Assembly: GCF_018139145.2 (NCBI RefSeq)
Contig: NC_059477.1
Coordinates: 34,885,502-34,949,501, forward strand
Direction: 5' to 3'
Length of the DNA: 64,000 nucleotides
Source: Gymnogyps californianus
Taxonomy: Eukaryota > Chordata > Aves > Accipitriformes > Cathartidae
The position numbers and the translations under genes are program-made. Shown here one piece after another: positions 6,709 through 61,738 of this stretch. Each line of letters begins with the position of its first letter. Positions within the stretch are counted from its first letter, which is position 1. The notes under the pieces were generated by a model. The model worked only from the letters and a program-made list of their open reading frames with translations. It ran no database searches and had not been told where the DNA came from.

Positions 6709-6846
6709 TGTCATGGTTTAACCCCAGTCAGAAGCCAAGCACCACACAGCCGCTCCCTCACTCCCCATCCCCCTCCCCCTGCTCCCAGTGGGATGGGGAG
6801 GAGAATCGGGAAAGAAGGCAGAACTCGTGGGTTGAGATAAGAACAG

Positions 6847-6852
6847 TTTAAT
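6847..6852 (-). terminator. LTR poly(A) signal ATTAAA, sense to DPP10
   Basis: ATTAAA on the minus strand, followed by CTGTTCTTATCTCAACCC, as in the sister LTRs. It lies in the DPP10 sense direction about 4 kb downstream of the last visible exon. Confidence 0.6.
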
Positions 6853-7055
6853 AAGTAAAATATAAAATTAACAATAATAATAATGAAATATAATAATACT
6901 AATATGACTAATAGTAATAGTAATGAAAAGGAATATAACAAAAAAAAAGGGGGGGGGGGAAGGAAAAAAAACCCAGTGATGCACAATGCAATTGCTCACC
7001 ACCCACTGACCTATGCCAGAGCTGCGATCCGCGCCTCCCGGCCAACTCCCCCGAG

Positions 7056-7063
7056 TTTATATA
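7056..7063 (-). promoter_or_regulatory. LTR TATA box
   Basis: TATATAAA on the minus strand, at the same place as in the other two family members. It is the likely U3 core promoter and now lies just downstream of the tRNA-like insert. Confidence 0.75.
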
Positions 7064-7074
7064 CTGGAAATTTG

Positions 7075-7085
7075 GGGATCGAACC
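7075..7085 (-). promoter_or_regulatory. Pol III B box of the tRNA-like insert
   Basis: GGTTCGATCCC on the minus strand is a perfect match to the B-box consensus GGTTCGANNCC. It is only 11 bp upstream of the LTR TATA box. Confidence 0.8.
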
Positions 7086-7120
7086 CGTGACCTTTTCGCG
7101 TTATTAACACCACGCTCTAA

Positions 7121-7134
7121 CCAACCTGAGCTAA
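7121..7134 (-). promoter_or_regulatory. Pol III A box of the tRNA-like insert
   Basis: TTAGCTCAGGTTGG on the minus strand resembles the internal A box of a tRNA gene with one extra G. It precedes the B box by the usual tRNA spacing. Confidence 0.75.
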
Positions 7135-7401
7135 CCACTAGGCATGAGGTTCCATGGTATGGAATACCCCTTTGGCTAGTTCGGGTCAGCTGTCCTGGCT
7201 CTGCTCCCTCCCAGCTTCTTGCACACCTGCTTGCTGGCAGAGCATGGGAAACTGAGAAGTCCTTGGCTTAAGATAAGCGCTACTTAGCAACAACTAAAAC
7301 ATCAGTGTGCTATCAACAGTATTCTCACACTAAATCCAAAACCCAGCACTGTACCAGCTACTAAGAAGGGAGTTAACTCTGTCCCAGCCGAAACCAGGAC
7401 A

Positions 7402-11418: not shown

Positions 11419-11681
11419 TGTCCTGGTTTTGGCTGGGATAGAGTTAATTTTCTTCTTAGTAGCTGGTACAGTGCTGTGTTTTGGATTTAGCGTGAGAATA
11501 ACGTGGATAACACACTGATGTTTTAGTTGTTGCTAAGTAGCGCTTATCTTAAGCCAAGGACTTCTCAGTTTCCCATGCTCTGCCAGCAAGCAGGTGTGCA
11601 AGAAGCTGGGAGGGAGCACAGCCGGGGCAGCTGACCCGAACTAGCCAAAGGGATATTCCATACCATGGAATGTCATGCCCA

Positions 11682-11689
11682 GTATATAA
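11682..11689 (+). promoter_or_regulatory. LTR TATA box
   Basis: TATATAAA in the context CCCAGTATATAAACTGGG. It is the U3 promoter of the LTR, pointing against DPP10 transcription. Confidence 0.7.
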
Positions 11690-11828
11690 ACTGGGGGGAG
11701 TTGGCCCAGAGGGGCGGATCACTGCTTGGGCATCAGTCAGTGGGTGGGTGGTGAGTAATTGCATTGTGCATCACTTGTCTTTTCTTGGCTTTTATTTCTC
11801 TCTTTTTTTGTTATATTCCTTTTCATGA

Positions 11829-11870
11829 CTATTATTATTATTATTATTATTGTTATTGTTATTGTTATTG
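11829..11870 (+). repeat. (ATT)n / (GTTATT)n repeat within the LTR
   Basis: Trinucleotide ATT units pass into GTTATT units. The same place in the other family members is also a TTA-rich tract of different length. Confidence 0.85.
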
Positions 11871-11894
11871 TTAGTATTTTATTTTACTTAAGTT

Positions 11895-11900
11895 ATTAAA
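11895..11900 (+). terminator. LTR poly(A) signal ATTAAA
   Basis: ATTAAA followed about 35 bases later by a T-rich tract. It is in the same position in all three family A LTRs. Confidence 0.55.
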
Positions 11901-12026
11901 CTGCTCTTATCTCAACCCACGAGTTCTACTTTTTTTTCTGATTCTCCTCCCCATCCCACTGCAGGGGGAAGGAGTGAGCGAGCAGCTGCGTGGTGCTTAG
12001 TTGCTGGCTGGGGTTAAACCATGACA

Positions 12027-61136: not shown

Positions 61137-61401
61137 TGTCCTGGTTTCGGCTGGGATAGAGTTAACTCTCTTTTTAGTAGCTGGTACAGTGCTGGGTTTT
61201 GGATTTAGTGTGAGAATGATGTTGATAACACTCTGATGTTTTAGTTGTTGCTAAGTAGTGTTTTATCTTAAGCCAAGGACTTTTCAGTTTCCCATGCTCT
61301 GCCAGCAAGCAGGTGTGCAAGAAGCTGGGAGGGAGCAGAGCCGGGGCAGCTGACCTGAACTAGCCAAAGGGATATTCCATACCATGGAACGTCATGCCCA
61401 G

Positions 61402-61409
61402 TATATAAA
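61402..61409 (+). promoter_or_regulatory. LTR TATA box
   Basis: TATATAAA in the same context as in the LTR at 11419. Confidence 0.7.
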
Positions 61410-61604
61410 CTGGGGGGAGTTGGCCTGGAGGGGCGGACCGCTGCTCGGGAACTAACTGGGCATCGGTCAGTGGGTGGTGAGCAATTGCATTGTGCATCAC
61501 TGGTTTTTTCCTTCCCCCCCTCCTTTTTTTGTTGCATTCCTTTTCATTACTATTATTATTATGTTTCATTATTACTATTGTTAGTATTATATTTTACTTT
61601 AGTT

Positions 61605-61610
61605 ATTAAA
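61605..61610 (+). terminator. LTR poly(A) signal ATTAAA
   Basis: ATTAAA at the conserved family A position, with a T-rich tract about 30 bases on. Confidence 0.55.
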
Positions 61611-61738
61611 CTGTTCTTATCTCAACCCACAAGTTTTACTTTTTTTTTCCTTTGTTTTCCTCCTCCTCACCCCACTGGGAGGGGGAGGGGGAAGCGGCTG
61701 CGTGGTGCTGAGTTGCTGACTGGGGTTAAACCACGACA

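Follow-up and report, generated by a model that had tools for sequence, protein, structure and literature searches.

The window analyzed here is a stretch of 64,000 nucleotides (nt) of Gymnogyps californianus (assembly GCF_018139145.2, contig NC_059477.1, positions 34,885,502 to 34,949,501). It contains a solo long terminal repeat (LTR) of an endogenous retrovirus that carries the interior of a tRNA-Ile(AAU) next to its TATA box, and two sister LTRs that lack this insert. The solo LTR lies at 6709..7401 on the minus strand, and the 74 bp at 7140..7067 are missing from both sisters, which start at 11419 and 61137 and read unbroken from CATGCC into CAGTATATAAAC. Direct comparison with both sisters bore out the original prediction, made from the letters of the window, of exactly 74 extra bases at this point. 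Shifted by one position, the 74 bp consist of the LTR word CCAGT (CTAGT in this copy), a 63-base tRNA-Ile(AAU) body, and AAATTT. The features are as follows.

6709..7401, minus strand: solo LTR with TG...CA ends, 693 bp, with the insert; it lies between CTGGG and CCGGG, a 5-bp target site duplication (TSD) in which 4 of 5 positions agree
7137..7141, minus strand: upstream copy of the duplicated LTR word CCAGT (here CTAGT)
7074..7136, minus strand: tRNA-Ile(AAU)-derived body, 63 bases, corresponding to nt 5-64 of the 74-nt tRNA
7121..7133, minus strand: stretch resembling the A box of RNA polymerase III (Pol III) promoters, one base over the strict consensus in this copy
7076..7085, minus strand: Pol III B-box-like stretch GGTTCGATCC
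7068..7073, minus strand: AAATTT filler at the boundary of tRNA body and LTR
7063..7067, minus strand: downstream CCAGT copy, running directly into the TATA box
7056..7063, minus strand: LTR TATA box TATATAAA, immediately downstream of the insert, read directly from the sequence
6964..6971, minus strand: T8 run within the LTR that could terminate Pol III transcription, located some 105 nt beyond the B box
11419..12026, plus strand: sister LTR with empty site and exact 5-bp TSD CAATG
61137..61738, plus strand: sister LTR with empty site and exact 5-bp TSD ACTCC

Relative to the tRNA, the body of the window copy has one additional G in the D loop, which it has in common with another copy (L004), and two additional bases in the variable loop. 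No second copy of the insert was found elsewhere in the window, where the next best match had an E value of 0.51.

Next, the host assembly (1.24 Gb in 542 contigs, with the window on contig C7) was searched with the insert and about 60 bases on each side. All 40 matches that were scored, out of 2921 candidates, spanned the insert and both flanks at least partly. The 5′ junction of LTRs with the insert (filled LTRs) occurred at 148 sites (at most one mismatch) and the 3′ junction at 150 sites (at most two mismatches). The uninterrupted (empty) site CATGCCCAGTATATAAAC was counted 18,073 times genome-wide (at most one mismatch), and the backward-read control gave 0 for each of the three patterns. 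The filled form thus makes up about 0.8% of the counted sites. A pattern that allowed any 55 to 85 bases at the insert site between exact flanks matched at 100 places, and the tRNA insert was present in all 44 that were read. The junction counts upheld the possibility, raised in the original prediction, that the insert marks an LTR subfamily and not a lone event. Altogether, 119 filled loci were read, 110 of them distinct; L001 to L030 are the best matches to the window, and the others were taken from the junction and tRNA-query lists. CCAGT precedes the insert in 107 of the 110 distinct copies, and AAATTT followed by a second CCAGT closes it in 93 of the 99 copies that parsed. The insert is 68 bases long in 95 of 108 measured copies (L102 and L126, whose right flank was not located, were excluded). 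Since the same junctions recur in the great majority of the 110 copies, one capture founded the filled LTR subfamily. The target duplication that the original prediction proposed to look for was found in the form of the 5-bp CCAGT on both sides of the insert.

The filled LTRs also have TSDs of their own. Of the LTRs examined for TSDs, 31 of 50 filled and 16 of 22 empty ones lie between exact 5-bp duplications, and four or more of the five positions agree in 40 and 19, respectively; in a set of 30 copies, 15 have exact TSDs. The copies therefore arose by separate integrations and carry the insert by descent. The mean pairwise divergence among 30 copies was 7.3% for the insert, compared to 7.0% and 8.4% for the two flanks. 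The converse possibility, named in the original prediction as an objection to itself, is that the 74 bp are ancestral LTR sequence that most copies have deleted. Filled copies do exist in both an old and a new LTR type (see below), as this would predict. However, given the small share of filled sites and the duplicated target word around the insert, it would take a clean loss leaving a single CCAGT in nearly all lineages, and the near identity to a tRNA would be left unexplained. We therefore consider an ancestral origin very improbable.

ARAGORN called a tRNA-Ile(aat) at 7063-7141 on the minus strand. A query with the vertebrate tRNA-Ile(AAU) aligned over nt 5-64 to the inserts of other LTR copies, with identities reaching 95% and a lowest E value of 6.2e-19, so the resemblance is not due to chance. 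The predicted tRNA-Ile(AAU) origin, in LTR sense and beside the TATA box, was thereby confirmed, whereas the proposal of a whole 74-nt tRNA did not hold. The acceptor stem is missing: none of the 40 matches scored for this query (of 158 candidates) reached the acceptor ends, and the insert lacks both acceptor strands and the CCA, so that only nt 5-64 are present. The agreement of the 74 extra bases with the length of tRNA-Ile is a coincidence of the window copy, as most inserts comprise 68 bp plus the 5-bp duplicated word. Scoring as a tRNA gene failed at the cutoff: the Rfam tRNA model gave the window copy 16 bits (gathering cutoff, 29; E value, 1.4), none of 20 other loci reached gathering, and ARAGORN called only the window copy among 30 copies and none of L073, L090, L106, L126, and L144. 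A C-to-A change in the variable loop distinguishes 106 of 108 copies from the tRNA, and most copies have two extra A residues; the remaining frequent changes are C to T or G to A at CpG positions.

The reference is what we take to be the vertebrate tRNA-Ile(AAU) sequence, and its support is partial. A mouse tRNA fragment agrees with its first 36 bases except for one (PMC11551137, where no Ile label is visible next to the fragment). The reference also agrees, save for three G-to-A changes, with a CCA-ended 3′ half at C2:143239435 in the host assembly. This locus, L144, is a 5′-truncated tRNA-Ile copy that ends in GGCCACCA and is probably a retropseudogene of a mature tRNA-Ile.

A short interspersed element (SINE) was the source that the original prediction put forward for testing. 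TguSINE1 has a tRNA-Ile head (PMC5729268), and such a head, or another tRNA-Ile SINE, could have inserted into the LTR. A 31-mer of the tRNA anticodon arm had just three matches genome-wide, two of them in the LTR insert (at most three mismatches and no indels, so that indel-bearing or more diverged copies are missed). With so few matches no sizeable tRNA-Ile SINE family shows, and the insert has no CR1 tail. The probability of a SINE origin is thus close to negligible. One further locus combines LTR and tRNA sequences: in L090/L141 (C190:33740-33799), the first 49 LTR bases are fused to a tRNA-Ile-like body (nt 5-64, 93%), in which changes in the T arm partly preserve pairing. The body is followed by TTTATAG, a word also found before the LTR start. 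This locus may represent another, independent capture or a derivative formed by deletion.

Filled LTRs also occur in a provirus. On contig C351, two filled LTRs in the same orientation lie 6.3 kb apart, with CCTCC at both outer flanks. Aligned over 665 columns, they differ by 7 mismatches and 4 gap openings (98.3% identity), and the presence of the insert in both at this identity indicates fairly recent mobility. The avian substitution rate is about 2e-9 per site and year, which would place the provirus at roughly two to three million years, although gene conversion could mimic youth. After the 5′ LTR comes a primer-site-like word that looks to be of the tRNA-Lys type. A Lys-like primer binding site (PBS) follows the LTR in 4 of the 110 filled copies (at most two mismatches, where the LTR end was located), and a genome-wide search for the LTR end together with the Lys-like PBS gave 415 exact matches (control, 0). 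With a PBS of this kind, priming most likely does not involve tRNA-Ile. An insert arising as a by-product of the primer tRNA is accordingly unlikely, the PBS not being complementary to the captured tRNA-Ile. Among the LTR-end/PBS sites listed, two spacers are common before the Lys-like PBS, GCCTTTT and GTCCTTTT, perhaps representing two provirus lineages.

Within 10 kb on the same strand, only three pairs of neighbors, 6.3 to 6.4 kb apart, were found among the 100 filled sites with exact flanks; this count does not register pairs in which a flank is mutated. Both ends were read for one pair, the provirus on C351. The pairs at C112:48399-54906 and C523:43244-49752 have nearly equal spacing (6.4 kb) and may be proviruses or copies of one locus. 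Viral contigs scanned with two patterns gave 0 matches with either. TG...CA ends and a 5-bp TSD, which are features of ERVL (class III) LTRs (5-bp rule, PMC6523648), are also found in the filled LTRs.

The state of the captured sequence points to the kind of template that was copied. A reverse-transcribed copy of mature tRNA-Ile with the anticodon IAU is expected to read GAT and to stumble at m1A58. The anticodon reads AAT in 107 of the 110 copies and GAT in one (L073), and A58 is retained in 96 of 99 scored copies. The unedited A34 and the intact A58 argue for an unmodified template, either a precursor or the gene, and against the mature tRNA. Searching the assembly with 31-mer and 23-mer tRNA patterns (at most three mismatches) revealed no intact tRNA-Ile(AAU) gene, which may reflect an assembly gap or a diverged gene.

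These observations bear on two origins other than reverse transcription inside a viral particle. In the first, a long interspersed element (LINE) of the CR1 type copied a truncated tRNA-Ile into one genomic LTR as a tailless retropseudogene, duplicating CCAGT, and this active copy then spread. Tailless tRNA retropseudogenes have been described in mammals, the insert is flanked by the CCAGT duplication, and the truncated, CCA-ended L144 shows that tRNA-Ile has been retroposed in the host genome. However, the insert has lost both tRNA ends and lacks a CCA, a CR1 end, and poly(A), AAATTT is not a recognized tail, and the unedited A34 speaks against a mature tRNA. In addition, the target would have to be one of the rare active proviruses, and the insert would then have to reach the second LTR. 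We regard retroposition as a possible but rather improbable explanation. In the second, a double-strand break in one LTR was patched from a tRNA-Ile gene. A DNA template fits the absence of modification marks, and a 5-bp duplicated word with a short filler is typical of such repair. The lack of an intact gene counts against it (unless the assembly has a gap there), and a break offers no reason for the choice of a tRNA, whereas retroviral particles hold tRNAs. Repair of a break is therefore unlikely.

We consider it moderately probable that nt 5-64 of tRNA-Ile(AAU) were captured in the U3 region during reverse transcription, by a switch of template to a packaged tRNA-Ile precursor. The endogenous retrovirus concerned has 5-bp target duplications and a Lys-like primer site. 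Its polymerase would have left the genomic RNA after copying CCAGT, AAATTT would have been added or copied next, and the unmodified precursor would have been copied from nt 64 to nt 5. On return to the genomic RNA a few bases back, CCAGT would have been copied a second time. The following replication cycle would have placed the insert in both LTRs, and later recombination between co-packaged genomes could have moved it out of an older LTR type and into a younger type that was more prolific. A switch to the precursor and back with recopying of CCAGT would account for the junctions. Among the possible sources listed in the original prediction, a by-product of reverse transcription is the one we favor, with a tRNA other than the primer as template. 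Human immunodeficiency virus type 1 (HIV-1) is primed by tRNA-Lys. It enriches tRNA-Ile about sevenfold (PMC4839721). Precursor tRNAs are packaged in retroviral particles, and template switching can introduce patches of host RNA into retroviral genomes (PMC4997597).

Several points weigh against a template switch. A staggered DNA cut would also fit the 5-bp duplication around the insert, AAATTT is left unexplained, and the 5′ join shows no microhomology. The packaging data were obtained with mammalian viruses, and the tRNA-Ile of HIV-1 is the UAU isoacceptor (PMC4997597, PMC4839721). Furthermore, L073, one of the two copies nearest to the tRNA, is alone among the 110 in reading GAT; if ancestral, this GAT would favor a mature template, yet the other near-tRNA copy, L126, reads AAT.

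We then compared the filled copies with empty LTRs of two lineages. Typing by a short U3 motif assigned 99 of the 110 filled copies to the new type, 4 to the old type, and 7 to neither. In the 5′ U3, the old-type filled copies (L073, L106, L123, and L126) were 92.7 to 96.3% identical to three old empty LTRs and 80.5 to 82.4% identical to two new ones, whereas L001, L004, L016, and L082 were 92.5 to 95.5% identical to new and 78.8 to 82.0% identical to old LTRs. Downstream of the insert the comparison was noisier: L123 (90 to 91%) and L106 (86 to 87%) resembled old LTRs, L073 was nearer to a new LTR, and the new-type copies ranged from 72% to 88% identity to new ones. Two copies, L073 and L126, both of the old U3 type, are the only ones with the variable loop CGCCAAG of the tRNA; the loop of L082 is intermediate, CGCCAAAA. 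L126 (C23:5768742) is interrupted just past the variable loop by an inverted LTR, apparently of the same family (a nested insertion), so that its T arm could not be read.

A tree of 92 copies with the insert removed grouped most of the filled copies, with 7 empty ones among them and L002 and L073 outside, but was weakly resolved. Lineage was therefore scored at diagnostic columns, 32 on the 5′ side and 8 on the 3′ side, derived from 9 old and 13 new empty LTRs (the old empty L036 was mixed). Of 108 filled copies, 104 were new on both sides, L123 was old on both, one was new and then mixed, L106 was old and then mixed, and L073 was old and then new. L073 is thus a mosaic: as far as the insert, 30 of 31 scored sites have the old state, and beyond it 5 of 6 have the new one. 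Judged by these sequence patterns, the insert probably moved between LTR lineages, and capture in the old lineage followed by recombination into the younger one would be the simplest history. It is less likely that the two lineages evolved in parallel, each keeping filled and empty forms. The recombination step leans mainly on the one mosaic and the four old-type copies.

The insert also brought Pol III promoter elements into the LTR. Among 30 copies, a strict A box in LTR sense was present in 25, a strict B box in 16, and both in 13; the window copy has no strict A box. The TATA box for RNA polymerase II (Pol II) is intact beside the insert, and the filled LTR evidently stayed transcribable. 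In 28 of 30 copies, the first run of at least four T residues after the insert lies at LTR position 422 to 459; in the other two it lies at 330. Both empty sisters have T runs at the same place (T4 and T6), so the run did not evolve for Pol III. The raw pairwise divergence was 3.0% in the A box, which contains no CpG, and 9.2% in both the B box and the rest. Use of the insert by Pol III is possible, and a filled LTR working as a dual promoter, with Pol II directed by the TATA box and Pol III by the captured boxes, is a doubtful proposal. By the rates of non-CpG change (A box, 1.6%; B box, 2.0%; rest, 1.3%), the boxes are not additionally conserved, and there is thus no sign that a Pol III function was selected. 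If the dual promoter were real, Pol III would produce a short, SINE-like RNA of about 175 nt ending at the T run. Elsewhere inside the window LTR, at 7186-7255 on the plus strand, a weak match to a mir-4451-like hairpin (24.4 bits against a cutoff of 100; E value, 0.011) is probably due to chance.

The nearest known kind of element is Helenus (TRIMp3), whose LTR likewise contains a tRNA-like sequence that includes A and B boxes, and this sequence is not complementary to the PBS in Helenus either (PMC10886601). Helenus elements are miniatures of 311 to 1263 bp, the dated ones ancient, from fungi, plants, and animals; the word "bird" is absent from the main text of that paper. An origin by insertion of a SINE into the LTR has been proposed for them rather than observed (PMC10886601). 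The filled LTRs differ in that they measure about 690 bp, with paired insert sites 6.3 to 6.4 kb apart, and so are not miniatures; LTRs with the empty site survive beside them, the TATA box was retained, and the insert seems to derive from the interior of a tRNA and not from a SINE. Cassandra and Ajax also have a small-RNA promoter inside the LTR, but it is that of 5S rRNA and the elements are miniature. Pol III transcription has been reported for Cassandra (PMC10886601). TguSINE1 shares the tRNA-Ile origin but has a CR1 tail and is mobilized by a LINE (PMC5729268), and no such family was found in the host genome. Host RNA patches in retroviruses, of which 7SL in an experimental recombinant is one cited case, are experimental or clinical in PMC4997597, while here the patch is an amplified part of an endogenous LTR subfamily. 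Many tRNA-like sequences have been reported in bird transposable elements (Ottenburghs et al. 2021, via the highlight PMC8044554), and the filled subfamily may already be among them. No printed description of the filled LTR was recognized in the literature searched, a search outside which most subscription papers lie.

Cassandra, Helenus, and Ajax are known in finished form, and the birth of such LTRs with small-RNA promoters by insertion is a conjecture (PMC10886601). In the genome studied here, the empty site, the filled site, forms close to the tRNA, and later variants are all present alongside a fairly recent provirus, and the order of events can therefore be read. A practical consequence is that software may miscall filled copies as tRNA genes, as ARAGORN did for 1 of 30. 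The insert is also a natural tag with which recombination between LTR lineages can be tracked. The filled subfamily provides a natural example of how mobile elements could acquire a second kind of promoter, and, if the dual promoter were real, it would show an ordinary endogenous retrovirus that has recently begun to change toward the Helenus/Cassandra type.
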